From: a virus | Direction: 5' to 3' (one strand) | DNA length: 21,071 nucleotides | Virus record (IMG/VR): IMGVR_UViG_3300035670_001420 | Location: 1-21,071 of that record | Shown here: in pieces, positions 1 through 19,387 of the stretch | How the letters are laid out: every line of letters starts with the position of its first letter | Position numbering within the stretch: position 1 is the stretch's first letter | Position numbers and translations under genes: made by a program | Notes under the pieces: generated by a model | What the model was told of the DNA's origin: nothing | The model's input: only the letters and a program-made list of their open reading frames with translations | Database searches by the model: none

Positions 1-61
1 TAATTGCCATTCCTGCTACACTAATAGTTTGTACCAGGTTATGATTTTCTACTTCAACCAT
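1..61 (-). CDS. Partial CDS, unknown function (5' end only)
   Basis: The first 20 codons of a minus-strand gene run off the left edge of the window. It starts with ATG at 61-59 and reads MVEVENHNLVQTISVAGMAI. An AAGGAG ribosome binding site lies at about 72-67, 5 nt before the start. A consensus promoter (186-214) sits about 125-150 nt upstream, with a terminator just before it, so this is the first gene of a new transcription unit. After a tail fibre gene, phages often carry lysis genes, further fibre genes or a chaperone. The visible residues do not let me choose, and I assign no function. The start is well supported by the ribosome binding site and the open frame. Confidence 0.7.
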   Translation of the reverse strand, partial: MVEVENHNLVQTISVAGMAI

Positions 62-185
62 TGCAGCTCCTTTTTCTATTAGCAGTGGTTAACATACATA
101 TTTAATTGTAGCCGGTCTGCCAACTAACTGTATTGGCTCTGCTATTGTCAAGTAAAAATATTTAAACCTTTTTTGATTCTTGTAT
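62..185 (-). other. Leader (5' UTR) of the partial left-edge gene
   Basis: This is untranslated sequence between the promoter and the ATG at 61. A transcript starting about 7 nt past the -10 box would have a leader of roughly 118 nt, longer than usual for phage structural genes. A weak stem can form (GCCAA at 119-123 with TTGGC at 133-137, loop of 9 nt). I recognise no riboswitch and no convincing small gene here. Confidence 0.45.
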
Positions 186-214
186 ATTATATCACAAGGG
201 CAAGAGGTTGTCAA
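186..214 (-). promoter_or_regulatory. Consensus sigma70-type promoter, leftward
   Basis: On the minus strand the -35 box is TTGACA (214-209), the spacer is exactly 17 nt (208-192) and the -10 box is TATAAT (191-186). Both boxes match the consensus, and a TG one base before the -10 gives an extended -10. It starts 5 nt beyond the T-tract of the terminator at 219-255 and reads towards the gene starting at 61. The block CCCTTGTGATATA that covers the 3' part of the spacer and the start of the -10 also occurs in the promoter at 18549-18577. Confidence 0.88.
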
Positions 215-218
215 CTAT

Positions 219-255
219 AAAAAATGCCTTGCTCAATCGTTATTGAGCAAGGCAT
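219..255 (-). terminator. Rho-independent terminator after the tail fibre gene
   Basis: A perfect 14-bp inverted repeat (224-237 with 242-255, ATGCCTTGCTCAAT and its complement) encloses a 4-nt loop (238-241). On the minus strand it is followed by a T-tract at 224-219. It lies 113 nt after the stop codon of the gene ending at 369 and closes the tape-measure-to-fibre transcription unit. A further copy of ATTGAGCA at 254-261 directly repeats 242-249. A short 7-bp hairpin (261-267 with 271-277) lies just upstream in the transcript. The stretch 256-368 holds nothing else I can recognise. Confidence 0.92.
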
Positions 256-368
256 TGAGCAGAACTTTTTAAGTTCTTTGTCGATCAGTCCATGGTTTCC
301 AAGTTAGTTTAGTCAGCTCGGTCGCCAAGTCGGGGTATATTTATCAATCAAAAATATTTTTGTTAATA

Positions 369-3300
369 TTAGCTAAATGTATACCCGGCTTTGCCTGATG
401 CAGAGCTGCCCGAGTATGCACCTATTTTAATAATATATATACCGTCTGCAGGTACTGAATAGCTAAAATAGCTAGCTGTACCATAACCGGAGTAGTCGTC
501 ACTCAAAGCTACTGTAGTACTACTAGGATCAAGTAGTCTAATATAGGTATCTCCATTAATTACGGAGGTGCCAAGTAAAACTGCTGTGCCTACCTGTATT
601 GTTTGACCGGCGCGTAGATATATTGCAACATTGGCAGTATTCTGTGTAGCACTAGCGGTATCAGTAACATTAAAATCTATATAACTTACGCCAGTGGTTG
701 GATCTCCTCCAAGTATTCCCCATGCGCTAACAGTACCAGTACTTATATACCCACTAGCAGTTAATTGTATATTATGTTTTAAAGGCGCACTGCCAACAGT
801 ACCACTAAAACTTCCACTAGTATTATTTGCTAGTATCGTAAGTAAATGGTTGGGCGGAGAAAAAGTATTAAAAAAACCATTAGGTACTTTTTGATCTAGG
901 GTTAATGTTATTTGATTATTACTAGTACTGGCAAAATTTTGATTTACTGTAATAGTAAATGCTTGTCCATCTACTACAGTAGTAGGACTTAAAGTTATAC
1001 TAGTTAGTGTTGGAGTTACTACCGGTGTTTGGCTAGTATCACTAATAGTATAATAACTGCTTTGATAGTAGGGCGTGCCTACATATGGTCCAGTTCTATA
1101 GAAATTTACGCGATACTGCTCTGTGCCACTTTCTGTAAGCTGATCTGTTTTTATAGTTATACTAAAAGCTCTAGTTACTGTACCATCAATGCTTTGAAGT
1201 GTACCGTATATTAAACCATCAAAATCACTGCCAGTAACCCCTGCACCACCTTCAATAGCCCAATAAAAATTATTGCCTATAAAAGTAGTACCATCATATC
1301 TTTGGTTGTAACTATACGCATTATCAGTAACATCAAAAGTAAACGTTATAATTCTATTAGTAGTTTCATTTTGTCCAGTACTAGGACTTGCTGATAGAGA
1401 GCTTATTTGCGGAGCAGAGTAAAGTGTAGGAGCTACAACTGTAATTTGTGTGCTAGCGGCAGTATTATTATTGCCAGCACTATCTTGAAAAGCTCCAGCA
1501 GCTATACTAATATTGGCAGTGCCACCAGTACTTGGAGCTGTATATATAAAACTATAGCTTGTTCCACTGCCTGTAAAACTACTTATAGACCCTATGCTAA
1601 CACTAATGTCGGCACTAGTAAGAGTTGTCGTTGACTCACTAGTAGTAATTGTAACGGTTGCTGTTGCGTTAATAGGTATGGCACCACTACTTGGTGTAAG
1701 TGTTACTGTTGGTGGTTTTACATCTCGTATAGTACCAGTAACAGTTTTACGTATAGTGCCACCACTAGGGCTTCTAACAGTTAGTGTAACTGATTGATTT
1801 CCACCATCAATATTAGCGGCTGTTAAATTAATATCTTTATAGAATGGGCCTACCCAATAATTAGTACCAGGTTCTGTTTCATAGTTAGAGCCTTCGTCAA
1901 TCGTTCCGCTAGTAGGGTTAACTGTTAAATTAGCATTATCGCTGCTTATACTAAAGGTTGGTAATACATTTAGCGTACCTGCACCTATATACTCTATTCT
2001 AAAAGTTTTACTAGAGCCTCCGTTAATAAAATCAGTATAATCAGTTAAACCTACCTGCCAATCGCTACCAGCAGTACTAGTATCAGCAATAGTTATAGTG
2101 GGGCTAGTAGCAACTACCGTACCTGTTGTAGATCCTGTACGAATACTTATTGTAAATGTTTCAGTACCCTCTGTCAATTGATCAGCAAAAATTGTTAGTG
2201 CAACTGTTCCATTAGAACTAGAATTAATAGTAAAATTTCCACTGCTTTGTGTAGGTGTTAAATCTATTCCACTAATCGAGTTTAGGGTCCAATAAAGTAC
2301 AGTATTTGCAGGTACACCAGTTGTTGTTATAACAAATGTAATACTTTGGCCCTCATTAACACTACTAGTACTAGTTGAAACAGTATAAGTAGCTGATGCA
2401 ATTTGATGGGCATGTTGAATAGGGTATTCTACAAGTGTTTGAACACCGCTTTGAGTAAGAGTACATCTAATAACTGCAGCATATGTTCCAGCGCTACCAG
2501 TATGAGAAATAGTAGCATACGGTAAATTACTAGCGGTTGTTAATACAAAATTAGCTGCGTTTTCTATTATAGACCAACTATAATCTATATTTGTACTATC
2601 TCCTCCACTAGTATTTATGTTATATGTTTTAGTAGTAGTACAGCCAGTCGAATAGGTGGTATCATATCCACATACAGTAATTCCAGAGCCTTCTGAAATA
2701 GTGCCAACTAAAGTGTTAGATCCAGTTCCTCCACTGCCTGTTCCGCCCAACAAAGTAGTATTGACAATAAATATAGTATTATCGTATTGACTTCCCCATT
2801 GATAGGTAGCATTAACAACAGCATCTTCAAAACCAAAATCAGTTTTTACAAGTTTATAATAGAGTGTACTTGCTTGCCTTCTAAATGCTCCTGAATAAAA
2901 ATCTATTCTAGAACTTATAGCGTTAGTCGAGCTTTGCTGCCATATTTCTTTATAAAATTCTGGTATAACTATGGCTGAATAACTGTTATATAGAGAAGTA
3001 TTTGTAATTGATTGTTCAGTAGTATCATAGAAACTAATTTTTGGAGATTCTTGTATACCAGCAATATTTATATGTTCAAGACCAGAATCAAACGTAAGTT
3101 TTTGAGGGCTGCTATTATTCCAAATTCTTATACCATAATTGTGGCTGCTTAAACTAATATTATTTAGTTGAAATACATAGGCTTCTGCTAAAGAATAGGT
3201 TGTGCTGGACGACGGCAGTATATATTTAGTAGTTAGCGTGTATGAACTAAACGTTGAAGATATAAAGCTATTGGCAGTAAACCATACATTGCTACTTTCT

Positions 3301-3833
3301 GGTACTGTATAGAGTACTAATTTGTAAGAATTAGGACTTCCATAGCTAATAGTTCTTTCATGTTGTCTTGTTAATCCATAGGTATATGTAGGTGAACTAT
3401 TAAAAGTTACTCTGCCTACAAATACAGGCGTAACATAGTTAGTAGAAACTAATCTATCGCCGTTAGCATTTGTAACTAACATTCCATAAGTTGGATCACT
3501 TAATTTAGTAGCAAATATTGCTATAGTAGTAGTTTCGCCACCACCAAGAGTTATTCTACTGGTTAACCTAGTAAAAGTTAGCACTGCTTGACCTGAACCA
3601 TTTGTACTTGTAGTAATACTATAAGGTCCAGCCTCAAGAGTATAGTATTTTAGGTATTGTGCTCCTGGTATATTAGTATATGTTAAACTTGAAGATGATC
3701 CTACACTTATATTGCCCGGATTACCGGCATAAGGACTAAGTTGCAACAATTCTACAAATACCCTGCCTCCCAACATTGTATCAATCAATGTTGGGTATCC
3801 GGGATTTCTATAAACTTCTATTCCATAAGCCAT
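369..3833 (-). CDS. Tail fibre / adhesin with Ig-like, Calx-beta-like and PPC-like domains
   Basis: This 1154-residue structural protein is probably a distal fibre or adhesin of the tail tip. The N-terminus (MAYGIEVYRNPGYPTLID) looks like other phage tip-attached proteins. A Gly/Thr-rich linker lies near 362-372. Then come an Ig/PKD-like domain (about 378-478), a Calx-beta-like domain (480-585, with VNEGQSITF and QLTEGTETFTISI), a beta segment (585-705), a bacterial Ig-like domain of the Big_12 kind (705-800, with AGAFQDSAGNNNT), a second Calx-beta-like domain (800-935, with DQLTESGTEQYRVNF), a further Ig-like stretch (936-1060) and a C-terminal PPC-like beta domain (1060-1154, with YIRLLDPSS, SDDYSGYG and VPADGIYIIKIGAYSG). 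Its ATG overlaps the upstream gene's stop as TAATG, with AGGA 11 nt upstream. No intramolecular chaperone or depolymerase motif is evident. The domain calls are by pattern; receptor binding is inferred from position and composition. Confidence 0.8.
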   Translation of the reverse strand: MAYGIEVYRNPGYPTLIDTMLGGRVFVELLQLSPYAGNPGNISVGSSSSLTYTNIPGAQYLKYYTLEAGPYSITTSTNGSGQAVLTFTRLTSRITLGGGETTTIAIFATKLSDPTYGMLVTNANGDRLVSTNYVTPVFVGRVTFNSSPTYTYGLTRQHERTISYGSPNSYKLVLYTVPESSNVWFTANSFISSTFSSYTLTTKYILPSSSTTYSLAEAYVFQLNNISLSSHNYGIRIWNNSSPQKLTFDSGLEHINIAGIQESPKISFYDTTEQSITNTSLYNSYSAIVIPEFYKEIWQQSSTNAISSRIDFYSGAFRRQASTLYYKLVKTDFGFEDAVVNATYQWGSQYDNTIFIVNTTLLGGTGSGGTGSNTLVGTISEGSGITVCGYDTTYSTGCTTTKTYNINTSGGDSTNIDYSWSIIENAANFVLTTASNLPYATISHTGSAGTYAAVIRCTLTQSGVQTLVEYPIQHAHQIASATYTVSTSTSSVNEGQSITFVITTTGVPANTVLYWTLNSISGIDLTPTQSSGNFTINSSSNGTVALTIFADQLTEGTETFTISIRTGSTTGTVVATSPTITIADTSTAGSDWQVGLTDYTDFINGGSSKTFRIEYIGAGTLNVLPTFSISSDNANLTVNPTSGTIDEGSNYETEPGTNYWVGPFYKDINLTAANIDGGNQSVTLTVRSPSGGTIRKTVTGTIRDVKPPTVTLTPSSGAIPINATATVTITTSESTTTLTSADISVSIGSISSFTGSGTSYSFIYTAPSTGGTANISIAAGAFQDSAGNNNTAASTQITVVAPTLYSAPQISSLSASPSTGQNETTNRIITFTFDVTDNAYSYNQRYDGTTFIGNNFYWAIEGGAGVTGSDFDGLIYGTLQSIDGTVTRAFSITIKTDQLTESGTEQYRVNFYRTGPYVGTPYYQSSYYTISDTSQTPVVTPTLTSITLSPTTVVDGQAFTITVNQNFASTSNNQITLTLDQKVPNGFFNTFSPPNHLLTILANNTSGSFSGTVGSAPLKHNIQLTASGYISTGTVSAWGILGGDPTTGVSYIDFNVTDTASATQNTANVAIYLRAGQTIQVGTAVLLGTSVINGDTYIRLLDPSSTTVALSDDYSGYGTASYFSYSVPADGIYIIKIGAYSGSSASGKAGYTFS

Positions 3834-6800
3834 TATGCAAGATTTCCTATTCTAACTCGCAAAACATTGCCTTCATAAACTTCTATTTTTTGATCCGTTA
3901 ATACAATTCTGCTTGCACCTACATTTTGTCCCAGTTGTAGTCTATCAGCAGTAATTGTGCCAGTAATTATCTGGTCGCCATTAATCTGTGTTGATCTACT
4001 AAATGCAGAAATAGTATTAGTACCGTCGGTTACTTGTGTACTACTACTAAATGTGACTAATCCGCTGAATCCTATAGCTTTACTAGGCGTGCCAAAAGTT
4101 AGGTTACTTCCGTTACTAGTATTAGATCCACTAGTATTTTCCACTGCTGTAAATGTAGCTACCCAATACCTATAACTATTATTTGCTTGAAATATTGGTG
4201 CGTTTTTACTCCAATTACCGTCTAAACCTAAAAACGTTCCAGTAGTAAACGTAAAACCACTAGCGCTTGGGCCTGCTGGGATATTGTCGTCAGTAGTAGG
4301 ACTAGTTTTATAAACTACACCCGTAGCAGTTCTACGACCATCAACGCCTGTGCCGTCACTGTTTATACTATAATATATAGTCTTATTATAGTACACTCCC
4401 TCGGACAAAGCAGTAAGTGTTATTGTCATAGTAGAGTTAGTATTAGGTATTGCCGTTACACTAGCACTATAGTTTGTTGTTACACCTCCTGAAAATGTGC
4501 CCCCACTTACTGTCCAGGTATAGCTAGGACTAACTAAATTTTGCGGATTAGCTGTTAATGTACCTGTGTTAGCTGGACTATAAGTAGTACCAGATAATTT
4601 AAAACTACCTGTTGTGGCGCCTAGAATATCTAAACCTTTGGCTGCTGAACCTGTGGGTCCTGTAGGCCCTAGAACACCATCACTAGTTACAGCTATTGTA
4701 ATGGTTTTTTCAGCAGTATTGGTTCCATCACTAACAACTACTTTAACTTGTATTGAACTAGTATTAGCAGGAGTCATTATAGTAGTAGCACCATTTGATG
4801 GACTAAAACTAGCCGTACCATTTGGACTTGACCAAGTATAAGTAGTTGGTGTAATATTTTGTGGTAATGCAGTTAAAGTTAGACTTGCTGGCGTATAACC
4901 AGTAGTACTATTATATTTAATTGCAAGTCCACCACTTATATCAACGCCTCTAGCAGGAGAACCTGGGGAACCATTTTCGGCTGTTTTTATTGGTGTTGAC
5001 CAAGTTAATGTATTTGTATTATTTCCGGTTGCTTGTCCAACTGCTACAGCTCTACTTTCCCAAATAGGATCTGTTCCAGCAGGAATAGAAGAATACCAAG
5101 TAACACCATAACTTGTAGGTACAGTGGTTATACTTTTACTTGTAAAACTATAAACACCGCCAGCAGGAGTAGAAATTGATATAACATTACTAGCAACTCT
5201 AGTAAATACACTAATTTCTGCAACTGTTTGTCCATCTGTGCCAGGCTGACCTTCTACGCGCACAGGAACATTCCACGTCCAAGTAGTGCCGCTTTTATAC
5301 CCTGTACTAGAATATAGTGGGTTTAATCCGGTTGTTTCTGCTACAGTACTAACCCAACCTGCTGGAGGACTAGTTGTTGAGTTAGCTGGCTTATCACTAA
5401 GGCCTAGTACTGTAGGGCTTCGCTTAAATACAATATCTACACTTGATCCTGGTGATCCGTTTTCACCCTTAATTTTTATAACATTACCGCTTTGTACAAA
5501 GGTTAAGCCGTTATCAGTACTTACTAATAATTTAACGTATTGATCTGTAGGTCTAGGTGTTGTTGACCAATCAGTACTACCATTAGGGCTAAATTCAAAT
5601 CTAGCACTTTGACTTGGTGCAGCTACTTTAGAAGGAGTACCCCAGGTTGCATCTTGTGGAGATAATCCATCACTAGTAAAAGTTCGTATACTTACCCATA
5701 GCGGTTTGCCATTATCAGCAGGAATTCCATCACTCCATGTAATACCAGTACCACCAGCATTTGCAGGTCCTGTAGGATTTGGATCAGAATAACTGCCGCC
5801 AATAGGTGTACTTGGAGGATTGCTATCGGTGCGGATAAAAGCATAAGAGGTAACCGCAGCTTGACCACTAGACCCTTTATAAACTACACCTATTTGTTCC
5901 TTATCAAGTAACGTATAGGACGACGTACCTGTTTTATACATTAATTTAGCATTTACACTAGTAACGTCACTGTTATTAGCAAGCGTAACAGCAGGTAAAT
6001 TGCCGCCTGCCGGCACTATTGTATAAGTAGTAGGTTCCGATTGACTAGGACTATTCCACAGCGCATAGTATAGTGGCTCTCCGCCAAATTCTACTGGTGC
6101 TTCGTTACCCTTAATTTTATAAACTTTAAAATTAATTGTAGACGGAGTATGAGCACCATCTGTTAAATAATCAGCACTTGCTTTAGTTATAGCATTAGTA
6201 TTACTACGTAGTTCATATACTACGGCAGCGTCGCCGTCTTTATTTTTGCTTAAGTTAAACCTTTCAGTAAATAACTGTCCATCATCTGTCTTTTTAGCTG
6301 TAATATCTACATAACCGCTATCGCTGGTCATACTTACCACATATACAGTAGCTCTACCATCTACAGCAGTTAAACTACCATTTATTAAGCCTGTACCAGT
6401 ACGTGGCGTAGTATTAATATTTGTATAAGAAATACCTCCTGCTAATTCACTAACATAAAAAGTATATCCTGATGTTTGTAGTACACCATTATCATATACT
6501 TCTATTGTAGTACTAGCTCCAAGGTAATTTCCACCTGTTCCATCTGGTAAGGTTGGAATAATACGAAAATCGTTTGTTAATTGAGCGTCAATATTAGTAG
6601 CATCAGTGCCGTCTTTAACTCTATTAACCGTTAGTGTTCGCAAAAATGTTTTGCCTGCAACTACAGCTTTTATAATACCATAAGCTTTTGTTGCTTCTAT
6701 AGCAGTAGCTTGTATATACCCCTTTGGTTTACCATCAATTGGACTATCATCCTCATTATTAATTTGTAGTGTATCATCAAAACCGTCTTGAGAATCTATG

Positions 6801-8125: not shown

Positions 8126-8135
8126 ATTAAAATTC

Positions 8136-11100
8136 CTACTGAATTGTTTTTATCAAAATTGAACCTAGAGCACTACTAGAACTATAGTTACCTGTTCTAT
8201 TAATAGCTCGGCAAGCTATTCTATAATTTATTCCTGATGCTGAAATAACTTTATTTGTTACAGTTGGTTTAAAATCTAGTAAATTAAATATCGCCTGTGT
8301 TTTACTTCTAGCAATTAAAATATTGGCAGTGTCAACTACAGACCAGAAATCGGCTGTACCAGTATCAGTGGTTTTATATATTCTAAACTCATAAGTTTCG
8401 AAATCACTAGGCTCACTATTAGTTCCTGTTAGTACTGCTTTTACGTATATAAAGGTATCTTGAAATGTTATACTTACGTCATCTGGCTTAAAAGGATTTG
8501 TATTTCTACCTACAGCTTGAAAGCCATATTCCTTGCACCACGGTCCAAATATATCATGCTCATTGTTAGTATATCTAGCTCTTGTTTTATATAATCCATT
8601 GGTTGTTAAACCTCTAATAATTATACTGCTTGATTGTTTATCAGTGTAGTATGGATTTTTAGGTGTATCGGAATCAAATAAACTATCTGCAGGTATAACC
8701 TCTACTTCAATTGTTGTAGCAGATTTACTTAATTCGCTTGGATTAGCAAATGTAATTACTGTAGTATTTATAAAAGTTCCGCTAGATATTTGTTCACTTA
8801 AACCACCAGTAGTAACTATATCAACTATTTTTGGTACATCAGTTATAGTGTTTTTTACTATATCTATGTTTTCCAATGATATATTAGCATTAAAAGCTAC
8901 ATTTTCGTTATCTAAATCTTTGGTATATATTTCTGGACTATAATCTGTTAGTGTAATTGTTGCGCTTAAATTGTTACTAGGTTGAATAGACAAAACTATT
9001 AAATCTTGTGTAACTTTTTGACGTTCACCAATCATTATTAAATTATCTACTTCAGCACCAGTTAAATTACCGCTGCTAATAGTTATAGTGTCGTAGTAGT
9101 TACTAGACAAAACACTGTTTATATCTCTGCTTATACTAACGATTTCATTATTTTGCGCATCTTTATTGTTCGTTCTAATTAGTACGCTATATAATTTTGC
9201 ACTATTTAATAATATAGGTTCTGTAAGTGTAATTGTACTACCACTAATAGATTTAATACGTGCCGAGCCCGCTCCCCACAGCGGTATATCGTGTGTTACT
9301 TTTACTAAATCGCCTCTGGTGCACACCAAATACTCAAAGTCTACATTTATTGTATATACTTCTGGCCTTAACTTTAACTGTGCCAGGTGCCAGCGAGCAA
9401 AATATCTAATTTGATCAGGATTTGTAACACCAGGTAAATTAATTTGTTCAAATTTTTCAGCTGCTACAACATATCTAGATACTCCTAGTGAATGAGTAGC
9501 AGTGCTAAATGCTCTGCCTGTACCTGTTGCAGCTGTGTTATTTTTTACAAATGTTTCACCAATTCTAGGTGTTCCTATATATCCTATAGCGTTCCAGTTA
9601 GTAGTTCCTAGATAAGTAATTTTATAAGTATTGCCGTTAACAAAGCCATTAGCATTTACTATATATCCATTATATTCGCCGTAACCATAGTTATATACAA
9701 TTATTTCATCAGCTTGATAAGCTTTTTGTTCGTTTGGAAAACTAACTCTAAAAGCGTCTGGTATAAACACTAAATTTTTGGTGCTAGTAAATCCCCAACT
9801 ATTATGCGGTGTAAAATGCTGTACAGTATAACTTCTAGCTTTATCTATTACTACACTCCACTTACCATTGATAAATGTTGGACTAGCCATGCCTGCAGCA
9901 GCTATATCGCGTAAAACTTCCATTAAGCTTTGAGTACTATTTAATACATTATTGTATTCAAACTTTGGTTTGGTAGCAGTAGTTAGATTACAAAATTGAT
10001 GCCACTCTACAAACTTATCCCAGTCTATTTCACTATCACTAATTGGATAAGCATTTGCAGTATGTTGTAATACATGTATAAACAAACTGGCAGGATTGCT
10101 AGTTTGTCTACTAACCCAGGATGTACCGTTCCAATCCTTAGCTATAGTTTGTACTAATGCATTAACTCCCTCTAAAGTGCCATTGACTTTATTAGTACTT
10201 TGAACAACTATTGCTGTTCTGGCCAAGTTACGTTTATTATTACCTCTAACTGGTAGCGCATTTAATGGTGGTGTGCTAGTGTCTGTAGCTGTAACTGCAT
10301 ATAGATAGGCTTTATGAGCAAATTGAGTTTTTCCTGAACTAGTATTATCTGCGGTTAGTCGTTTTATACGAACAGTATAAGTATTTCTAGGTTTATCTAC
10401 AAAATCATAGATAAAGTTAAAGCCATCTTTTTCATTTCGCTCTAATTCTACAATTTCCCAGCCTCTATTTGGGTTAATGTTATCGACACCATCCCAAACA
10501 AATCTAATAGTACACGCTACTCCGCGATTACTAGCGGTTAAACTTGGATTAGTGCCATCACCAGTTCTGTTTTTTGCCTCAACCCTAATAGTTTTTGTGC
10601 CGCGTTCAAGATATACTTGACTTCTTACTGCTCCAAATGGCACCCCGCCTTCTTCATCATTTTTAAATGATTGGGCAGTAGTAGCTACTAGAACATTATC
10701 AATATATAGGCTTGCCCAATTATCGGCCGCTAAGTCTATAGTATAATATCCGTCATTTGGAAATGAACGCGTTGTAGAATCTATATAATCATGTGATTGT
10801 GGGCTTGTACTACTCCACACAGCATCATTACGTAAAAATTCATTTGCCCAAGTACTGCTAGTAACAGAAACTCTGTTTGGTAAATGAGACTTTGCACTAA
10901 ATATTAAACTGTCGATTTCCGTAGTACTAGTGTTACTAATATCTGTTGTAATACTGCCGCTAGATATTGTAACTAGTTTATTGCCGGTAGTTTCAGTATT
11001 TACAACTTCTGGTGTTACTGCTATAGTTAAACCAGTTTTTGTATAACTAGTATAAGTAAATGCGTTTTGATAATAAAAACCGCTAGGACCTAGCTCAATT

Positions 11101-12857
11101 TCATATAGTTTTATAAAACCAGTGGGTACTTGTGGAGTATAGTTATAATCGTTACTTTGATTTACTAAATAACTATAGCTTGTGGCTTCCATAGCTGATT
11201 TTAAACCACTAGACGGTTGGCTATTTCTAATATCGGAAACGCTTCCAGCAAATAACTCTACACTACCATTTGCTTGTAGTGCAAATACATACTTTCTATA
11301 TAACTCATAGACACTACTTTGATTATCTCCAAAGGAATAAGTAATATTTCCTGGCGCTTGTAAGTTAAAAGTTTTTGCAACAGCTAAACTGTACCTAAGA
11401 TCATTTTGTGTAGGCGTAATATCTGTTTCTGCTCCTGGTGTATTAAAACTACTAGGATAACAAGCTATTGCAAATCTTATTTTGTGTGCATAACTATTAC
11501 CACTTTCCGTATTTACCATTCGTAAACCTTCTGGAAAATTAATAGCTACTTTAATATTTGTTGCTGGTTGTGAAAATGTAACAGTTGTCCACGGGTTTCC
11601 AGTAGTAGAGTTATTAATTAATTCTACTGGATTTGTCGGCAGTTGCTGTACGTCGCTAGGATAATAATTATTAAATGCTTCAGTTTCGCTAGCTGTTTCA
11701 CTGTCGCTGCCACTAAGGGTTAGCTGTATATTTCTACCTGTTTTAGTAGTATCTTGATATAAGCTACTAACTTTTGTACTGCCTACAGATATACTATCTT
11801 GATCAATCCATAGCGGACCAAATCCCCAAATAATTATTAGATGCAATAAACTTGTAGTAGTTAAAGTCTCTAGATAGGGTGTGGCACCTAATAATCCTGT
11901 TACGCGAGTTTTACCTAATACTACTGGTATTGCACCAAATGGATTAGCTTGATTTTGTGTTCCTGCAAACATATTGGTAGGTATAGCTTGCCCAGGATCT
12001 TTTGGTGGCCTAATAGGAAACGCTGCATTTACAAGTGCCATACCAGCAAACTGTATAGCCATAGTAGTAGCAAACTTTGCTCCTGCAGATGCGCTTACAA
12101 CAGCCACATCCATGCCACCTATAGTTGCAGCTTCAGCAGTACCAAAAAGTTCTGTAGCAAGCGGTCCACCAAAGTAATAAGCTGCTATCATAATAGCTAT
12201 CATAGCAACAGTGCGTACCCCTCTACGACCTTGTGCTACAATTTTATAGTTAACTATTTGATCTTTTTCAAAATAAGTAGTAGACCATTTTTCCTTGGGT
12301 ATAACTACACCATTAATAGTTAGTATTAGTTGATTACTAAATTCTATACTTAAATTATATTTTGTAGTAATATAATTTGCAAAAGCCTGGCAATTAGTAC
12401 CAGGCGTAGCAAATTCTACTGCTCTACTCCAGTATAGTGGGTGTGGGCTGCCAACTATTGGTAGAGCCGCTTTTTCAGTATAACGATAAAATCCTTCTAG
12501 TCTGCTAAACCACATAGGGCTATTAATAGACTCTATTACACTGTCTTTACCGTCACGACTATGTAAAAATTTGCTATTACCAATGTATACACCAACATGG
12601 CTAAGCTCATTCATTATGCGAAATAAACAAAGGTCTCCAATTTCAGGATTGGTTACCTTAGTCCAGCTATCTTTATAATAACTAATGGCAGCTACAGCCT
12701 TAGGGTCGTAGCTGCCATCATATAATTCGCTATAGCTAGGTAAATCAATGTTTAATTCATTTTTATAAAATAGTCTTGCTAATCCCCAGCAATCTATACC
12801 TTGTTCGTTTCTACCGTTTTCTTGGTAAGGTAAACCAATATATTTATTATAATCCAT
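8136..12857 (-). CDS. Tail tip fusion: NlpC/P60 peptidase + I-like + J-like hub protein
   Basis: This 1573-residue protein combines functions that lambda encodes as K (C-terminal half), I and J. Residues 1-131 are an NlpC/P60 cysteine peptidase with Cys23 in GIDCWGL, His87 in SHVGVYIG and His99 in FLHSRDG. Such domains can cut peptidoglycan cross-links. Residues 133-213 look like the ubiquitin-like part of I. Residues 214-285 are hydrophobic and rich in Ala/Gly, as in I. The J-like hub begins near 294 (NMFAGTQNQANPFGAIPVVL). Later J-like stretches are FIHVLQHTANAYP (about 926), DAFRVSFPNEQ (about 1032) and LRPEVYTINVDFEYLVCTRGDLVKV (about 1160). A jelly-roll-like insertion sits near 655-790 and a small module near 1065-1117. 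Fibronectin-III-like sequence fills about 1325-1573. The start overlaps the upstream stop as TAATG. Fusion of K-type and J-type parts is inferred from one uninterrupted frame. Confidence 0.87.
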   Translation of the reverse strand: MDYNKYIGLPYQENGRNEQGIDCWGLARLFYKNELNIDLPSYSELYDGSYDPKAVAAISYYKDSWTKVTNPEIGDLCLFRIMNELSHVGVYIGNSKFLHSRDGKDSVIESINSPMWFSRLEGFYRYTEKAALPIVGSPHPLYWSRAVEFATPGTNCQAFANYITTKYNLSIEFSNQLILTINGVVIPKEKWSTTYFEKDQIVNYKIVAQGRRGVRTVAMIAIMIAAYYFGGPLATELFGTAEAATIGGMDVAVVSASAGAKFATTMAIQFAGMALVNAAFPIRPPKDPGQAIPTNMFAGTQNQANPFGAIPVVLGKTRVTGLLGATPYLETLTTTSLLHLIIIWGFGPLWIDQDSISVGSTKVSSLYQDTTKTGRNIQLTLSGSDSETASETEAFNNYYPSDVQQLPTNPVELINNSTTGNPWTTVTFSQPATNIKVAINFPEGLRMVNTESGNSYAHKIRFAIACYPSSFNTPGAETDITPTQNDLRYSLAVAKTFNLQAPGNITYSFGDNQSSVYELYRKYVFALQANGSVELFAGSVSDIRNSQPSSGLKSAMEATSYSYLVNQSNDYNYTPQVPTGFIKLYEIELGPSGFYYQNAFTYTSYTKTGLTIAVTPEVVNTETTGNKLVTISSGSITTDISNTSTTEIDSLIFSAKSHLPNRVSVTSSTWANEFLRNDAVWSSTSPQSHDYIDSTTRSFPNDGYYTIDLAADNWASLYIDNVLVATTAQSFKNDEEGGVPFGAVRSQVYLERGTKTIRVEAKNRTGDGTNPSLTASNRGVACTIRFVWDGVDNINPNRGWEIVELERNEKDGFNFIYDFVDKPRNTYTVRIKRLTADNTSSGKTQFAHKAYLYAVTATDTSTPPLNALPVRGNNKRNLARTAIVVQSTNKVNGTLEGVNALVQTIAKDWNGTSWVSRQTSNPASLFIHVLQHTANAYPISDSEIDWDKFVEWHQFCNLTTATKPKFEYNNVLNSTQSLMEVLRDIAAAGMASPTFINGKWSVVIDKARSYTVQHFTPHNSWGFTSTKNLVFIPDAFRVSFPNEQKAYQADEIIVYNYGYGEYNGYIVNANGFVNGNTYKITYLGTTNWNAIGYIGTPRIGETFVKNNTAATGTGRAFSTATHSLGVSRYVVAAEKFEQINLPGVTNPDQIRYFARWHLAQLKLRPEVYTINVDFEYLVCTRGDLVKVTHDIPLWGAGSARIKSISGSTITLTEPILLNSAKLYSVLIRTNNKDAQNNEIVSISRDINSVLSSNYYDTITISSGNLTGAEVDNLIMIGERQKVTQDLIVLSIQPSNNLSATITLTDYSPEIYTKDLDNENVAFNANISLENIDIVKNTITDVPKIVDIVTTGGLSEQISSGTFINTTVITFANPSELSKSATTIEVEVIPADSLFDSDTPKNPYYTDKQSSSIIIRGLTTNGLYKTRARYTNNEHDIFGPWCKEYGFQAVGRNTNPFKPDDVSITFQDTFIYVKAVLTGTNSEPSDFETYEFRIYKTTDTGTADFWSVVDTANILIARSKTQAIFNLLDFKPTVTNKVISASGINYRIACRAINRTGNYSSSSALGSILIKTIQ

Positions 12858-13435
12858 TAAAATAATCCCGGAAAATATAATGGTGAAAATGTAAAGCTAG
12901 GGAAAGGTTCTCTGGTAAAATTAATCATTTCTAGCTGTAGTTCTATACTTTCGGCACTATAGGTAGCACCTACTATATAAAATCTTGAAAATTGTGCTTC
13001 TGGGTTGGGACCGGTTAGATTGCTAGAAAGTACAATGCTTATAGTTACTTCTGTAGGCTTAGTTAAGTATTTTCTAATAAGTGCTATGGCTTCTTGCGTT
13101 ACATAATTAATTGTAATACTTATGTTTCCTACGCCGGTATCTTGTTCTTCCGGCAAATTAATTTGCATTGGCACAAACCAGTACTCAATACCTGCAAATG
13201 TTACACCGTAAATAACTTCAGCATCATCGGTGTAACCTTCTAGTGTTTCTAATTCTTGAGTGGACCAACCAAGTGTAGTTCCTGTTAATCTGCCTGTAAA
13301 AGTATCTGCTAATCTAACGTCATCATTTCCGCCGGTAGGATCTTTAATGGTTATTAATGTAATTACTTGTGCATCTGTTTCCGATGAAAACATTGCACGA
13401 ATTGCTGCAGCAGATAAACTATTTAGTCTACTCAT
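12857..13435 (-). CDS. L-like minor tail protein (DUF1833 family)
   Basis: The protein has 192 residues. Its features fit the DUF1833 family, which takes the place of lambda L between M and K: SRLNSLSAAAIRAMFS at the start, a beta-rich middle with EYWFVPMQINLPEE, and the ending EPFPSFTFSPLYFPGLF, where FPGLF is a hallmark of the family. It belongs to the tail tip, next to the distal tail ring. Lambda L carries an iron-sulphur cluster in its C-terminal part, but this protein has no cysteines, so no such cluster is possible here. The start codon overlaps the M-like gene's stop as ATGA and has no clear ribosome binding site, so translation is probably coupled. The stop overlaps the next start as TAATG. 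Confidence 0.86.
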   Translation of the reverse strand: MSRLNSLSAAAIRAMFSSETDAQVITLITIKDPTGGNDDVRLADTFTGRLTGTTLGWSTQELETLEGYTDDAEVIYGVTFAGIEYWFVPMQINLPEEQDTGVGNISITINYVTQEAIALIRKYLTKPTEVTISIVLSSNLTGPNPEAQFSRFYIVGATYSAESIELQLEMINFTREPFPSFTFSPLYFPGLF

Positions 13436-13794
13436 GGTAATATTTCAAATTGTAAATTAGTTTGCCAGTAACCAGGCGCACGATATTGTAGTGTAAAAAA
13501 TTGTCCGTCACCTTGTGGAACTAGACGACACTCAACAGTTGTGCCTAATCTAGGATGAGTAAAATTAAATCGTTTTACACCTAGCAGCGTATTATTTACA
13601 AAATTTTCTAATGTTGTAGTTTGTTGTGTGGTCATAATAAAACTAAGTGTCATAGTAGTAGGCCGGCGGCTACGTCGTCGTTGTTTTGCCGGCCCTGCAT
13701 CCATAGTAGAACGGATAATATTTACGCCTATAGTTTCTGTAAAGTCTTTTTGTGGACTTTGAGGTAAGTCTGTTGGCCAAGGTACATTTGCCAT
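13432..13794 (-). CDS. M-like minor tail protein
   Basis: The protein has 120 residues and fits the phage minor tail family of lambda M. It opens with WPTDLPQSPQKDFTET, followed by RSTMDAGPAKQRRRS, NFTHPRLGTTVECRL and the ending APGYWQTNLQFEILP. The DAGPAKxRRR motif and the THPR motif are typical of the family. It probably forms the ring at the distal end of the tail tube, where the tip complex docks. A strong AAGGAG (13805-13800) within the end of the tape measure gene lies 5 nt before the ATG, and only 1 nt separates the two genes. Length is as expected. Confidence 0.88.
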   Translation of the reverse strand: MANVPWPTDLPQSPQKDFTETIGVNIIRSTMDAGPAKQRRRSRRPTTMTLSFIMTTQQTTTLENFVNNTLLGVKRFNFTHPRLGTTVECRLVPQGDGQFFTLQYRAPGYWQTNLQFEILP

Positions 13795-13795
13795 A

Positions 13796-16700
13796 CTATC
13801 TCCTTCCTACCATTGAAGTTATACCAAATGTATTAGTAAAACTTTTTTGTAAATTGCTATTAGTACGGCTTAGTTCCCCAGCAACCATATCACCAACAGT
13901 AACTTCAATACGACGATTACCTCTGCCATCAGTTGTTTCTTTGGCAGTTGCTTTTTCTGGACTGTAGTTATTAACTACTATGGCTACATTTCCTTGATTT
14001 CCACTAACTCCTAAATTGCCATTACTATCGCGTTTTAGGGGCATAATGGCTTCTGGGCCTGCTTCTCCCATTACTCCTAAACCTTTAGCCGCTTTAAATA
14101 ATGTAGGTTGGTTAACTATACTGTTAGTAAAGGTTCCACCGTTGGCATATCCCATAATACCTTGATTATTAAAAGCATTACCCATAGCACTAAAGCCAAA
14201 AAATGATGCTAAACTTGCTCCTACTGAGGTGCTTCCACCAAATAAACTCTTAGCAAAATTTTGCATTTGCATTTGCAACATTGTTCTAAGGAAATCTGTA
14301 AGCATACTATTCATAAAATCTTTAAAACTAAATTTGCCTGTTTGTATAAATGACATCATTGAATCTGCCATTTTACTAAATTGCTGGCTCCAAGTATCTC
14401 CTAATTTTTTAGCGCTATCTGTTATAGTAGTATTTAAATCTACTATTTTTGTTTGCTGATTATATAGAGTAACAGCGCCACCAACAGCATCAGTATATGT
14501 TTGACCAATAGCAGCACCGGCATCCATAAAACTTGGTTGCCCTGCTGGCGATACTGGACCAAATTCAGTGTCAGCTCCAGGAGCATTAGCCATGTCTCTT
14601 AATAGTTTTAATGCGGCAGTATCTCTACCATCCATAGCTTGACGTATAGATTTTTGTAGTGCTAATTCATTACCTATTTGTTGCAAGCGTAAGTTATTTA
14701 ATCTATATTCTTCTTCAGTTAATTGACCTGTGCTATTTTTATAATCTAATTTTTGTTTTTCAAAATCTAGTTGTTGTTCTAGCGATCTTATACTGGCTGC
14801 ATCTGCTTGCTGTGTTCTTTCTTGTATAGCAGTGGCTTGGTCTAAAAATCTATTAACCTCAGTAAGATTTAAATTTCGCAGAGCTTCTTCACCCTTGCCA
14901 GCTAGTTCAGATAACATCTTTCTGCTATCTGATTCTATTTTTGCTATTGCTTCCCTGTATATCTCAGACTGCCTTTTAACTTGTGAGTTATACGTTGATT
15001 CAGCTTTTGCCAGCTCAACACCTGTTTTTCCCTTACTTTCTACCTCAAAAGTTTGACTAGCAGCTTTTAGTTCTCCCTTATATTTTTCTAAGGCTATTTG
15101 CTTATTTAAATCTTCTAAACTTTTAGTAAGTGTAAATCTAGCTTGTTGACCGCCGGGTCCTTGATCTGTAAACTCACTAATTTCTCTAGTTATACTATCG
15201 GCTCGTCGTTGTAGGCCTTCTACAATATCTCTGGTAGTTAATGTTGTGTCTGTGATAGCCCCTTTTAATCTTTCTTGCTCTTTTTGATTATTAGCGGCAA
15301 TCTTATTTAAACTTATGCCTTTTATTTGATCTATTAAACTTATTAAAGTTGGGTCTTGTTTAGCAAGCTCACTTAGTTTAGTAACATTAAAAGATGCAAC
15401 TGCTTTTTCTACTTCACCTGTTCTAACAACACGTTTTTGCAACTCTCCCTGTCTTTCTTCTACCGCAGACTCTAACTGATTGCCTCGGTCTTGTGCATCT
15501 TTATAAAACTGTAACTCTCTAAGATCTGCATCTCGCTGAACCTGTAATCTTAACAGTTCAATGCCTAGTACAAGTTTTACGTTTCCATCAGCTATTTTAT
15601 TTTGAACGTCTATAGCTTGTATAGCTAGTTCAGTTTGGCGTCTGGCTGTTTCTACTGTTTGCTCTCTGTATGTACCAACTATAAATTGTTGTTGTTGAAC
15701 TGATAACTGTTGCAGTCTTAGTTTAAAATTAGCTAAACTTGCGTCTATTTGTTTATTTACACTATCTTGAATCAATTTGCGAGCTGTAGCAGAAATTTCT
15801 TCCATTCTACTATTAAGACCGCCTAATTTAGATTTGGCATCTTCTATAATTTCTGGCAACTGTGCTAATTGTGATCTTTTTAACTGTTCATCACTAGCAC
15901 TTAGTGGTCCGCTTGCCAATTCTTTTTGCAATTGTTTTAACTTTAGTTCACTACTAGCCAATGTCTTGTTATAAGTATCTGATTGAGCTGTTAAATCCTT
16001 GTACTCAGCAACTAATGGCGCTAATGATAAGGCTGTGCCAGGGTCTAAAAATTCTAGCCCGCCTTTTTTACTTAATTCGTCCATAGCTCCGCGAGCACCA
16101 ACTGCATCATTTAAAGCTTTTTTAAGTGCTGCAGCTTGTTTAACAGTATTACCTAAAAATACTGTTAGTGGACTATTATCTTTGGTAGCATTAGCTAAAT
16201 TTTGAAATGCCGTTTCTGTTGCTTTAGCAGTTTCGCGCACATCTTGGGTAACTGCTTGTGCCTCTTTTACGCCTTTTTTACTATTATTGATAACTTCTTG
16301 TACAGCTCGACTAAGTTCTAGCAAGTCTTTATCTCGTAAGCTAGTAGTTAGACTTTTTAATTTTTCTGTAAGTCCTTCCTCGGACAAGTCTGTAGTATCT
16401 AATACTTTTCCTAATCTTTCTTCTAATGCTCCACGCATATTAACAGGCATAGTTTGAAGTGCGCTTGTTACACTGTCAACTAAATTTTCAGCTAGTTTTT
16501 TAGATCTTTGTCCACCCCAAAAAACAGATAAAAAATCTTTTACTTTGTCAATCCAACTGCTCATTTCTTCAGATTTAGCAAATCCTTTATTTACCCTATC
16601 TAAGCTATCAGATATGCCGTCTAAACTATTAGCAAATGCATTAATACTATCAATAGTCAATGCACCTTTATATTTTTCTGCTACCATAGTAGCAGTTTTA

Positions 16701-18493
16701 GTAGATTCTTCTAGTGATTGTATTGCACTGTCAAACTCTTGCACAGCTTTCTTGTTTTTACTAAATAACGTATCTAGTATTAAAAATGTAGCAGTAGCTA
16801 TTTCTAATGCTACAAAAGCTCTACTTAAACTCTGACCAAGTATACTAATTGCACTAGCGGCGGCTACCATACTACCTTGCACTACTGTTACAAATTTACC
16901 TAGTCTGCCAATGTCTTGGTCTGCTTGTGCTTTACCATATAATTCTTTAATACCACTAAGGAAGCCTTTGGCCTCTACATCACCAGTTACTTCACTTAAT
17001 ATACGAAGTCTAGCTGCCTTGCTACGAGCTTGATCTCTTATTTCTTCTCGTTGCCACAATTCTGACAGAACTCGTGCACGTTTTTGTAATCCTTCTTGTA
17101 AAGTTTCATCTACGCTGGCTAATGCCTGACTACGCTCTAGCACTAATTTTTGTGCAGCAGCTACTTTATCCATAGCTACAGCAATTTTTTGTTTATCGGC
17201 AGATTCGCTTTGAGCAAATTTTGCACTAGTTTCTTGCAGCTTAGCTATACTTTTTTCATTAGCAACATCTTCACTAGTTGCTTTACCAAACCACTTACTG
17301 CCGGCAACTCGCTTATCCATACCACCACTAGCACCCAGTAATTCTTGTTGTGCTTGTTTAAGCTGTTGTTTAGCTTTATTTAAGTTTTCTTCTAAGGCAG
17401 GAATTCCTAGGGCTCTTTCTTGTTTAGCTGAAAAAGCTTCTTGAAAACTTCTATTAATTCGTGTGGCTTTTTCAGCTGCGTCTTCTGCTGCTGCTTTAAG
17501 GCCCTCACGCCATTGCCCTAGTGCTGGTAGTGCTGTTTTAGTAATTTTAAAAGCTGCTAAACCAATGGCTGCTGTTATTAGTCCGGTATTGTCTGCTAGT
17601 AGTTTAGCTATAGGAGCTATTATCGAATTTACAACTGTTAGTATATCTTGTGCCACATTTTTTAGCTGTGCTAGCAATTTATCGTAAGGATTGCCTTCTT
17701 GTGCGATCTCACTAAATTTATCTCTGCCTTCTTTAAGTACAGCATTAGCAAATGCTTGGCGGCGTTCAAAATCTGTTAGTTGCGCTTCGGTCTTACCAAC
17801 TTTACGAGCATAGTCTTCGGCCGCTTTACCAACTTTAGTAAACAAACCTAGTTCGTCTAGTAGTTCCGGCTCTAATTTTGTAATGCCTCGTGTAAGTCTA
17901 CTAACAGCATCGCTCATATTTAAGCCTAAGGCTTGCGAAGCTCCTTTAGCTACTTCTCCTAGTTGCATAAACTGTTCACGTGTCATGCCGCTACTTATAG
18001 CTTTAGCAGTAGCTTCCATAGATTCGCGTAAACTAATAGCTCCACCGCTTACTTCTGCAAACTGTTTAGCTAGTGCACCCATAGCTGTGCCACTAGCCGC
18101 ACCTAGTTGATCTAAACTGCGAATCATTGTTTCGGTTTGCATTGCATCACGTAGCACACCAAAAGCAGATGAAACAGCAAATATATTTGCCGCCCAAGTA
18201 GCGTATAATCTAACCAAGCCACCTAAACCACGGGCTTGATCTGCAAAGTCACGAGCACTAGCACCTCCACCACCTGCTGCTCCACGAGCACGATTATAGT
18301 CGCCTACGGCAGCTCCATACATAGGATCAATACCAGCACGACGCATAGCAGCGCTGCCAGTTTTAGTACCTTGCATTAAGTTCTGTGAACGCTCTAGCTG
18401 TTCGTTTAATTTTTTAGCATCATTAGTGCGGCTTTGTATCGTGTTATTTTGGTCCTGCACACTAAGATTTACGTCAATACGATTACCTGCCAT
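13796..18493 (-). CDS. Tail tape measure protein
   Basis: The protein has 1565 residues and sets tail length. By the rule of about 0.15 nm per residue, the tail would be roughly 235 nm. An N-terminal helical region leads into a conserved tape-measure segment (about 100-260, with SLDQLGAASGTAMGALAKQF and ISSGMTREQFMQLGEVAKG). Hydrophobic stretches lie at about 286-316 and 538-577. Long helical, coiled-coil-like sequence rich in Gln, Lys and Glu fills about 330-530 and 580-1330. The C-terminus is of the lambda H type: FIQTGKFSFKDFMNSML and FLRTMLQMQMQNFAKSLFGG near 1365-1418, then GVMGEAGPEAIMPLKRD near 1470. In lambda H the C-terminal part is removed on maturation; whether that happens here is unknown. 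The start is supported by GGAG at 18502-18499, 5 nt upstream. It is the first gene of its transcription unit, with its own promoter at 18549-18577. Confidence 0.95.
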   Translation of the reverse strand: MAGNRIDVNLSVQDQNNTIQSRTNDAKKLNEQLERSQNLMQGTKTGSAAMRRAGIDPMYGAAVGDYNRARGAAGGGGASARDFADQARGLGGLVRLYATWAANIFAVSSAFGVLRDAMQTETMIRSLDQLGAASGTAMGALAKQFAEVSGGAISLRESMEATAKAISSGMTREQFMQLGEVAKGASQALGLNMSDAVSRLTRGITKLEPELLDELGLFTKVGKAAEDYARKVGKTEAQLTDFERRQAFANAVLKEGRDKFSEIAQEGNPYDKLLAQLKNVAQDILTVVNSIIAPIAKLLADNTGLITAAIGLAAFKITKTALPALGQWREGLKAAAEDAAEKATRINRSFQEAFSAKQERALGIPALEENLNKAKQQLKQAQQELLGASGGMDKRVAGSKWFGKATSEDVANEKSIAKLQETSAKFAQSESADKQKIAVAMDKVAAAQKLVLERSQALASVDETLQEGLQKRARVLSELWQREEIRDQARSKAARLRILSEVTGDVEAKGFLSGIKELYGKAQADQDIGRLGKFVTVVQGSMVAAASAISILGQSLSRAFVALEIATATFLILDTLFSKNKKAVQEFDSAIQSLEESTKTATMVAEKYKGALTIDSINAFANSLDGISDSLDRVNKGFAKSEEMSSWIDKVKDFLSVFWGGQRSKKLAENLVDSVTSALQTMPVNMRGALEERLGKVLDTTDLSEEGLTEKLKSLTTSLRDKDLLELSRAVQEVINNSKKGVKEAQAVTQDVRETAKATETAFQNLANATKDNSPLTVFLGNTVKQAAALKKALNDAVGARGAMDELSKKGGLEFLDPGTALSLAPLVAEYKDLTAQSDTYNKTLASSELKLKQLQKELASGPLSASDEQLKRSQLAQLPEIIEDAKSKLGGLNSRMEEISATARKLIQDSVNKQIDASLANFKLRLQQLSVQQQQFIVGTYREQTVETARRQTELAIQAIDVQNKIADGNVKLVLGIELLRLQVQRDADLRELQFYKDAQDRGNQLESAVEERQGELQKRVVRTGEVEKAVASFNVTKLSELAKQDPTLISLIDQIKGISLNKIAANNQKEQERLKGAITDTTLTTRDIVEGLQRRADSITREISEFTDQGPGGQQARFTLTKSLEDLNKQIALEKYKGELKAASQTFEVESKGKTGVELAKAESTYNSQVKRQSEIYREAIAKIESDSRKMLSELAGKGEEALRNLNLTEVNRFLDQATAIQERTQQADAASIRSLEQQLDFEKQKLDYKNSTGQLTEEEYRLNNLRLQQIGNELALQKSIRQAMDGRDTAALKLLRDMANAPGADTEFGPVSPAGQPSFMDAGAAIGQTYTDAVGGAVTLYNQQTKIVDLNTTITDSAKKLGDTWSQQFSKMADSMMSFIQTGKFSFKDFMNSMLTDFLRTMLQMQMQNFAKSLFGGSTSVGASLASFFGFSAMGNAFNNQGIMGYANGGTFTNSIVNQPTLFKAAKGLGVMGEAGPEAIMPLKRDSNGNLGVSGNQGNVAIVVNNYSPEKATAKETTDGRGNRRIEVTVGDMVAGELSRTNSNLQKSFTNTFGITSMVGRR

Positions 18494-18520
18494 AGTAGCT
18501 CCAGGTGAATTTTTCTAGTT

Positions 18521-18536
18521 GCATAATATTTTATGC
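18521..18536 (-). repeat. Inverted repeat in the tape measure leader
   Basis: GCATAA (18521-18526) and TTATGC (18531-18536) form a perfect 6-bp inverted repeat around a TATT loop. It lies about 6-21 nt past the transcription start expected from the promoter at 18549-18577 and 28 nt before the tape measure ATG. It could be a small stabilising 5' hairpin or an operator. An A/T-rich 6-bp repeat may also occur by chance. Confidence 0.4.
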
Positions 18537-18548
18537 GAGATTACACCA

Positions 18549-18577
18549 AGTATATCACAAGGGTTTTAAAATGTCAA
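18549..18577 (-). promoter_or_regulatory. Near-consensus sigma70-type promoter for the tape measure unit
   Basis: On the minus strand the -35 box is TTGACA (18577-18572), the spacer is 17 nt (18571-18555) and the -10 box is TATACT (18554-18549). A TG one base before the -10 makes an extended -10. The only departure from consensus is C for A in the -10. It lies between the chaperone terminator (18597-18631) and the tape measure start (18493), so it can drive the tape measure, tip and fibre genes down to the terminator at 219. It shares the 13-nt block CCCTTGTGATATA with the promoter at 186-214, while the first 9 spacer bases differ. Confidence 0.87.
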
Positions 18578-18596
18578 ATACAAATTTTTTTGCAAT

Positions 18597-18631
18597 AAAA
18601 AAGCCCGCTGTTTAACTGCTAGCGGGCTTTT
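18597..18631 (-). terminator. Rho-independent terminator overlapping the end of the T frame
   Basis: An 11-bp inverted repeat (AAAAGCCCGCT at 18599-18609 with its complement at 18621-18631) encloses an 11-nt loop. On the minus strand it is followed by six T (18602-18597). The core GCCCGC/GCGGGC is strong for this A+T-rich sequence. The upstream arm encodes the last residues of the T-like chaperone frame, and its TAA stop (18614-18612) lies in the loop. It separates the tail tube/chaperone unit from the tape measure unit, whose promoter starts 20 nt further on. Confidence 0.9.
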
Positions 18632-18926
18632 GATCTCGTTTATTAATTAATTCGGCTCTTGCAGAATCTATTAGTTTTATTAACTGAACTATTAATTTTC
18701 TATCTTCTAAATCAATTTCCATATAGTCTAATATTTCAGTTAAACCTATAAAGCTTTTGCCTAAATATAAACCATTAAAACCTTCCCATTCATCTTTTAA
18801 CATGCGATATACAAGAATTGCTTGCTGCACGTCTATAGGAAAGTCTTCAAATTCTACCGGCATTTCACTGTCTATAGGATCATTACCCATCATTTCACAT
18901 ATTTCTAGGTAACGTTCGCGTGTCAT
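18612..18926 (-). CDS. T-like part of tail assembly chaperone, made as a GT frameshift fusion
   Basis: This is an acidic, mostly helical 104-residue segment counted from the first in-frame ATG (ERYLEICEMMGNDPIDSEMP, then DFPIDVQQAILVYRMLKDEW). The ATG at 18926 has no ribosome binding site. The frame stays open upstream to 19004, overlapping the end of the G-like gene. It is therefore most likely translated only by a -1 shift at GGGAAAC (19001-18995). The fusion would be 131 residues of G plus 127 residues from this frame, 258 in total, and span 19387-18612. As in lambda, GT would recruit the tape measure while G coats it; neither is expected in the virion. The sequence resembles phage proteins I remember from this position, but the role rests mainly on context and the slippery site. 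Confidence 0.82.
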   Translation of the reverse strand: MTRERYLEICEMMGNDPIDSEMPVEFEDFPIDVQQAILVYRMLKDEWEGFNGLYLGKSFIGLTEILDYMEIDLEDRKLIVQLIKLIDSARAELINKRDQKPASS

Positions 18927-18955
18927 GCCAAGTTGTTGATTTTGAAAGTAGTTAT

Positions 18956-19387
18956 TTAGTTGACTCTCGACTCCTTCGAGCTGTTCTTGGAAAAGTTTCC
19001 CAAGTCACCAACTTGTTCACTAATAAAGCTGTCAAAATCGTTGGAATTCCTCATTAAGTATAATGCGTTCTCACTAGTATAGTTTAGCTCGTCTTCTGGA
19101 TCTAGTTTACTTACATCTACTGGGGCTAGTTGTTCTAAGTATTTAATCTTTAAACCTGTCCAGCCTTTTACTGCATTTTCTACATATAGTTGTAAAAACA
19201 ATTCGTCATTTAATTCTTCGTGTGGTTGACGATTTTTAAATGTAGTTTTTGTAGCTTTTTTACGAATATTTACAAGAGTTTCGCGGCTTAAAAAAGCCAA
19301 GCTAATTTTAAATCCTGGCATACCAGGATACTCTACTTCAATACTTTTTGATGGGACTAATAGGGTTTTTAAACTGAGTTCTGCCAT
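18956..19387 (-). CDS. G-like tail assembly chaperone
   Basis: This 143-residue protein (AELSLKTLLVPSKSIEVEYP, FKISLAFLSRETLVNIRKKA, FLQLYVENAVKGWTGLKI) sits between the major tail protein and the tape measure, where tail assembly chaperones are found in most long-tailed phages. It begins with a short beta-like part and continues with helices, in line with the family. The last 12 residues (from Phe132) are read only when ribosomes do not shift at codons 130-131 (GGA AAC). The ATG lies 51 nt after the major tail protein stop and has no strong ribosome binding site, so the start is less certain than the frame. A GC-rich hairpin precedes it. Confidence 0.87.
   Translation of the reverse strand: MAELSLKTLLVPSKSIEVEYPGMPGFKISLAFLSRETLVNIRKKATKTTFKNRQPHEELNDELFLQLYVENAVKGWTGLKIKYLEQLAPVDVSKLDPEDELNYTSENALYLMRNSNDFDSFISEQVGDLGNFSKNSSKESRVN
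18966..18980 (-). other. Possible stimulatory hairpin downstream of the slippery site
   Basis: On the minus strand CTCGA (18980-18976) can pair with TCGAG (18970-18966) around an AGGAG loop. It begins 14 nt after the heptamer, somewhat further than the usual 5-9 nt, and has only 5 bp. It may help the -1 frameshift, or be incidental. Confidence 0.35.
18995..19001 (-). other. -1 programmed ribosomal frameshift site (GGGAAAC)
   Basis: The minus strand reads TT G GGA AAC T, so the heptamer fits X XXY YYZ in the frame of the G-like gene (codons 130 GGA and 131 AAC). Slipping back one base re-pairs the tRNAs on GGG and AAA, and the next codon CTT (18995-18993) is in the T-like frame. That frame has its closest upstream stop at 19007-19005, directly before the site, and stays open to 18614. 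Lambda uses GGGAAAG for the same purpose. The product is a 258-residue GT fusion. Confidence 0.88.

Follow-up and report, generated by a model that had tools for sequence, protein, structure and literature searches.

Two conserved terminator-promoter cassettes, A and B, were found in the late region of the window (the whole 21,071-nt stretch of phage DNA analysed), and in both promoters the spacer carries a block, CCCTTG, which is kept in relatives under purifying selection, as is the geometry of the cassettes. This description of A and B is more secure than either account, polymerase or regulator, of what reads the block. According to the reading that we slightly favour over a phage regulator, and to which we give a probability just short of one half (about 0.48), A and B would restart late transcription units through the host sigma70 polymerase, which would itself read the block. 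Activity of the two promoters, its late timing and recognition of the block by the polymerase, and not by a separate protein, are inferred.

Two junctions on the minus strand

A and B lie on the minus strand, as does every long gene in the window, and they were the highest-scoring promoter-like sites in two half-window scans (Table 1). Both are sigma70-type promoters, judged on TTGACA, a 17-nt spacer and TATAAT, with the full sequences TTGACA-ACCTCTTGCCCTTGTGA-TATAAT (B) and TTGACA-TTTTAAAACCCTTGTGA-TATACT (A). The positions given for them by the sequence-only reading were thus correct, with the minus strand as theirs, and so was the claim of a 13-nt block in the same register: the 13-mer CCCTTGTGATATA is exact at both promoters and has no other zero-mismatch copy in the window. 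Its TTGACA-N9 spacing was off by one, the gap from TTGACA to CCCTT being 8 nt (N8). When TTGACA-N8-CCCTTGTGATATA was searched with up to 3 mismatches, 2 matches were found in the window versus 0 in 100 shuffles. Beyond the -35, TG and TATA, the two promoters share CCCTTG plus an A at -13; in relatives the A is free to vary and CCCTTG is not.

Table 1 Positions of the two junctions and their neighbouring genes in the window
Feature	Position	Strand	Remarks
Start of the gene behind promoter B	1..61	minus	MVEVENHNLVQTISVAGMAI..., cut by window end; orthologue of ~114-aa membrane/coiled-coil protein
Promoter B	214-186	minus	-35 TTGACA 214-209, 17-nt spacer, extended -10 TGA, -10 TATAAT 191-186
Spacer block at B	192..201	minus	G-22 (201), CCCTT (200-196), G-16, TG, n
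Intrinsic terminator of junction B	215..256	minus	15-bp stem 256-223, then U-tract; -22.9 kcal/mol, z -6.9 (RNA fold)
1154-aa presumed tail-fibre/adhesin gene, last before terminator B	369..3833	minus	Big_12 Ig-like domain
Tape-measure protein gene, first after A	13796..18493	minus	PHROG tape-measure families, best E 1.3e-45
Promoter A	18577-18549	minus	-35 TTGACA 18577-18572, 17-nt spacer, extended -10 TGA, -10 TATACT 18554-18549
Spacer block at A	18555..18564	minus	A-22, CCCTT 18563-18559, G-16, TG, n
A+T-rich stretch, terminator to -35 at A	18578..18593	minus	UP-element-like; AAAATTTTT in relatives; conserved columns u-12 to u-5
Intrinsic terminator of junction A	18594..18631	minus	-19.1 kcal/mol, z -4.0 (RNA fold); kept in relatives
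Tail assembly chaperone genes (143 and 104 aa), last before terminator A	18612..19387	minus

That each promoter comes directly behind a strong terminator was likewise borne out, and the spacing is kept in relatives: wherever both elements were detected, the distance from T-tract to -35 was 26 nt at A (24 in G003) and 10 nt at B. A simple scan of one genome (G019) gave 9 strong terminators, and only at A and B did a near-consensus promoter lie within about 30 nt. The composite of a terminator stem-loop and a host-type promoter is conserved at both junctions across relatives. The unit ahead of A consists of the major tail protein and the chaperones, and that ahead of B of the tail fibres, among which the 1154-aa presumed tail-fibre/adhesin protein had no PHROG match. 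B lies about 125 nt from the start of its downstream gene, whose 20 visible residues match a ~114-aa membrane/coiled-coil family of relatives. In three relatives (L358, L376, L003) the B promoter precedes a different gene than in the others, and B therefore behaves as a module boundary.

If the preferred reading is right, the terminator would end the upstream unit and the near-consensus promoter would restart transcription with the host sigma70-type RNA polymerase, giving each unit its own level, and the cassettes would insulate the tail and post-tail units. The sequence-only reading had contrasted such separate units with lambda antitermination. This contrast is weak, because the major tail protein is nearest to that of T5-like phages (about 30% identity) and relatives have D5-like regulators, although the tail tip protein is J-like. 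The T5-like tail protein and the D5-like regulators indicate a control region that is not of lambda type, and separate late units are then unsurprising.

Two further observations concern this region. At 8136-12857 (minus), an N-terminal minor-tail-protein part and the J-like tip protein are united in a single protein of 1573 aa. The B leader (186-100, minus), like many B leaders of relatives, contains TTTTT(A)CTTGACAA about 30-40 nt past the -10, a second -35-like hexamer with no -10 that is absent in several relatives. A structured leader RNA at B was considered and rejected: the window gave no match to Rfam, and several B sites do not have the leader motif TTTTTCTTGACAA.

Conservation of the spacer block

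The exact string TTGACA-N8-CCCTTGTGATATA occurs in 32 IMG/VR stretches. Allowing any base at -13 and TATAMT, at least 118 stretches were found, versus 6, 14 and 14 for permuted blocks, and 77 of the 97 CCCTT sites among newly fetched loci fall in this lineage, as do some CTCCT matches. The suggestion of a phage-specific promoter signature thus holds, limited to this lineage. The bias of a motif search was then removed by collecting relatives through protein similarity alone, using for site A a chaperone alignment (best 80 of 412 relatives) together with major-tail-protein loci gathered earlier, and for site B the gene after B (best 80 of 197 relatives). At site A, CCCTTGTG was present in 58 of 83 rows; the remainder carried CATATGTG (11), CCCTTATG (3), CACTTATG (3) or rarer types, with -35, TG and -10 intact, and these three elements were strong in all lineage members listed. 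At site B, CCCTTGTG was found in 64 of 77 and CCCTTATG in 4, and the promoter was strong in 73; a weakened -35 (TTGAAA or TTGAAT) goes together with a degraded block at four sites. The block at A is conserved in the clade to which the window belongs; several sister clades lack CCCTT at A and keep the rest of the promoter, with GGTTG, GGTCA or CCTAT as the block, and many genomes have another block at A yet CCCTTGTG at B.

Conservation of CCCTT in relatives had been set as a test by the sequence-only reading, and the block is indeed kept at the same two sites. The further copies that it expected elsewhere in the genome do not occur: in relatives' genomes the block is confined to A and B, which rules out a signal with many genome-wide copies, always stands in fixed register with the -10, and has no exact copy apart from a promoter. 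Elsewhere in these genomes, strong promoters differ in their spacers, which are 18 nt long in one repeated class, so the block belongs to A and B and is not a general late signature.

To quantify constraint by column, parsimony changes were counted on protein trees (for B, that of the downstream gene), including loci found by motif and by protein. Although the counts depend on trees built from short proteins, B shows a large contrast: 20-23 changes in each column of the free spacer (-28 to -24) and 8 at -23, against 0, 1, 5, 2, 1, 0 and 5 changes in the block (-22 to -16), 0 in TG, 11 at -13 and 0-3 in the -35/-10 hexamers. The corresponding values at A were 7-17 (-28 to -23), 2-8 (-22 to -16) and 18 (-13). 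Position -17 was T in 59 of 59 B sites and 53 of 56 A sites; -16 was G or A in 58/59 (B) and 56/56 (A), its replacements being almost only G to A, and an A at -21 was seen at no site. Judged from these rates, purifying selection on the block is strong at B, near that on the -35/-10, and moderate at A. Selection on the shared part, which the sequence-only reading had thought plausible, is thus upheld by the protein-only block counts as well as by the column counts, and the block very likely does something.

The same counts bear on the idea that A and B derive from a single cassette and stay alike through duplication or recombination, with no selection on CCCTT. Two genomes (G002 and G008; L130, L152-L153) share TTAGCC between the otherwise variable spacers of their own A and B, which suggests exchange between the sites, and the B cassette stands before other genes in the three relatives named above, as expected of shuffling boundaries. 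Against this, the five columns beside the block at B are saturated and the block is nearly fixed, and the N8 of A differs systematically from that of B across the lineage. The column-wise rates largely refute common descent without selection, which we regard as improbable.

Candidate readers of the block

The TRTG motif occupies -17 to -14 and is best known from Gram-positive promoters. In the preferred reading the block would be a functional extension of the core promoter, its -17 to -14 part (TGTG, with only G and A common at -16) acting as a TRTG-type extended -10 and its -22 to -18 part ([A/G]CCCT) lying on the Z-element, the part of the spacer that the beta-prime zipper touches. The latter has been placed at -22 to -18 with a loose consensus AACCT (review, PMC10911233), and elsewhere at -24 to -18 (PMC4496709) or -17/-18 (PMC5101437). 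The earlier statement that CCCTT is not a sigma70 element therefore needs narrowing: CCCTTG falls on the Z-element window and the TRTG, and not being a sigma70 element does not make it something other than a polymerase element.

A conserved sequence at -22 to -18 in register with the -10 agrees with the Z-element, as does the CCT shared with AACCT (PMC10911233). [A/G]CCCT matches that consensus at 3-4 of 5 positions, the A at -21 never occurring; the block differs in being nearly invariant at B, in having G at -22 and C, not A, at -21, and in its lineage specificity. The likeness to TRTG lies in T-17, A/G-16, T-15 and G-14, A being the commonest replacement at -16, as TRTG predicts, and leaves -22 to -18 unexplained. 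A polymerase element also fits the fixed register, the asymmetry and the lack of free exact copies, and a search of 16 relatives for the sigma70 region 2 family found none, which likewise led us to discard a phage sigma factor as the reader. Several points count against the polymerase. A promoter this near consensus should need no Z-element, the constraint at B exceeds what a loose element should require, and the sister-clade blocks at an intact promoter A are not Z-like. Moreover, CCCTT is not enriched in the cellular promoters of the one bacterial order tested, which is not the host's: in 295 genomes it occurred in 5 of ~150 YYYYT-TGTG promoters among the matches listed, T-rich blocks dominating. 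In unrelated phages the excess is at most mild (15 lineages versus 6, 7 and 9 for permuted blocks, among the matches listed), so that a general preference for CCCTT was rejected.

The stricter constraint at B and the lack of a general CCCTT enrichment keep a phage regulator as a serious, if less probable, rival. The block would then be bound by a putative regulator, such as a D5-like DNA-binding protein, which would hold back or license the strong promoters until late infection, CCCTTG being its asymmetric footprint inside the spacer. Such a factor would explain why constraint at B approaches that of the -35/-10, above expectation for a loose basal element, and why the block is lineage-specific and limited to A and B; a near-perfect late-gene promoter also needs some means of early silence. 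D5-like domains were found in 12 of 16 relatives tested, at full length in 5 (E 1e-38 to 1e-42) and as short paralogous domains in others. On the other side, the block has neither dyad symmetry nor an exact copy away from a promoter, which are common though not obligatory operator traits, A and B do not strictly covary, and G002, G042 and G044, in which A is without the block, have full-length D5-like matches too. A bolder version, which we think somewhat unlikely, makes GCCCTTG the specific site of a putative new phage factor, perhaps a D5-like protein, perhaps an alteration of the host polymerase by the phage, which would make near-consensus promoters late-specific that are otherwise constitutive; if true, it would be a switch located in the promoter spacer.

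Two other arrangements were rejected. A dyad operator with its centre at the -10 (CTTGT...ACAAG at B) fails because there is no covariation at -13 and the right arm is missing from several B sites that retain GCCCTTGTGG, and pairing of the block with a terminator arm, judged by eye, fails because the terminators vary and the block is fixed.

The host's own housekeeping promoters might also use the block and be copied by the phage, which we consider least probable of all. The nearest annotated phage by tip protein (36% identity over 68% of length), Curvibacter phage P26059A, is a freshwater isolate that infects Curvibacter, Comamonadaceae (PMC5964084), and the host may belong there. However, an exact TTGACA-N8-CCCTTGTGATATAAT occurs 15 times in 84,980 species genomes, mostly in Clostridia, with no match labelled Burkholderiales, and P26059A itself lacks the block.

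The lineage and comparable systems

The phages of this lineage are uncultured, tailed and apparently aquatic; the relatives' records are metagenomic and mostly incomplete, the whole ones reaching 82 kb. A literature search found no description of the block. Among the closest parallels to the cassettes is the PeSL (promoter early stem-loop) of T4-like phages, which are myoviruses; a citing paper (PMC4503421) describes it. Both systems combine a terminator hairpin and a host-type promoter as one conserved unit at module boundaries, and here B is retained in some relatives that have another gene behind it; PeSL occurs in many copies in shuffling early regions, whereas here two fixed late-region copies per genome accompany siphophage-type tail genes. 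T5-like transcription, with its D5-like regulators and many host-type promoters, resembles this lineage in the major tail protein and the D5-like proteins of relatives and differs in the tail tip, which is J-like here; in the one T5-like Vibrio phage examined (L158), the equivalent region contains no near-consensus promoter. P26059A has a terminator and then a promoter directly after its major tail protein, but without CCCTTGTG.

A spacer block that is nearly as fixed as the intact -35/-10 boxes it accompanies, across a large lineage (412 relatives by one tail protein), offers a natural and testable case of polymerase (Z-element) versus phage factor reading the spacer. In addition, a terminator followed by TTGACA-N7-GCCCTTGTGnTATAAT can serve as a marker for annotating late-unit boundaries in these phages.

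Other promoter elements were noted during the searches. In G019 (L122, about 25.5-29.5 kb of the record), G001, G007 and G008, TTGACAC-N-GC-AAAATTATGnTATAATTTTGGCGCCA is repeated in several copies per genome, with an 18-nt spacer, the palindrome TGGCGCCA and an AT hairpin; in G019 and G001 it is preceded by GACCAGCGGC/GACGAACGGC-type repeats, with D5-like HTH genes nearby on the other strand. In unrelated phages (L012, L015, L197), CCCC(TTGTG) lies in an inverted repeat (GGGGCTTG...CAAGCCCC) that overlaps the -35; the window has no such operator-like arrangement. Finally, a different promoter signature, likewise phage-specific, is the TTGACAATAAATGG/CA-CTCCTGTGCTATAAT repeated ahead of small genes in L280, L285 and L286, from one or more unrelated phages.
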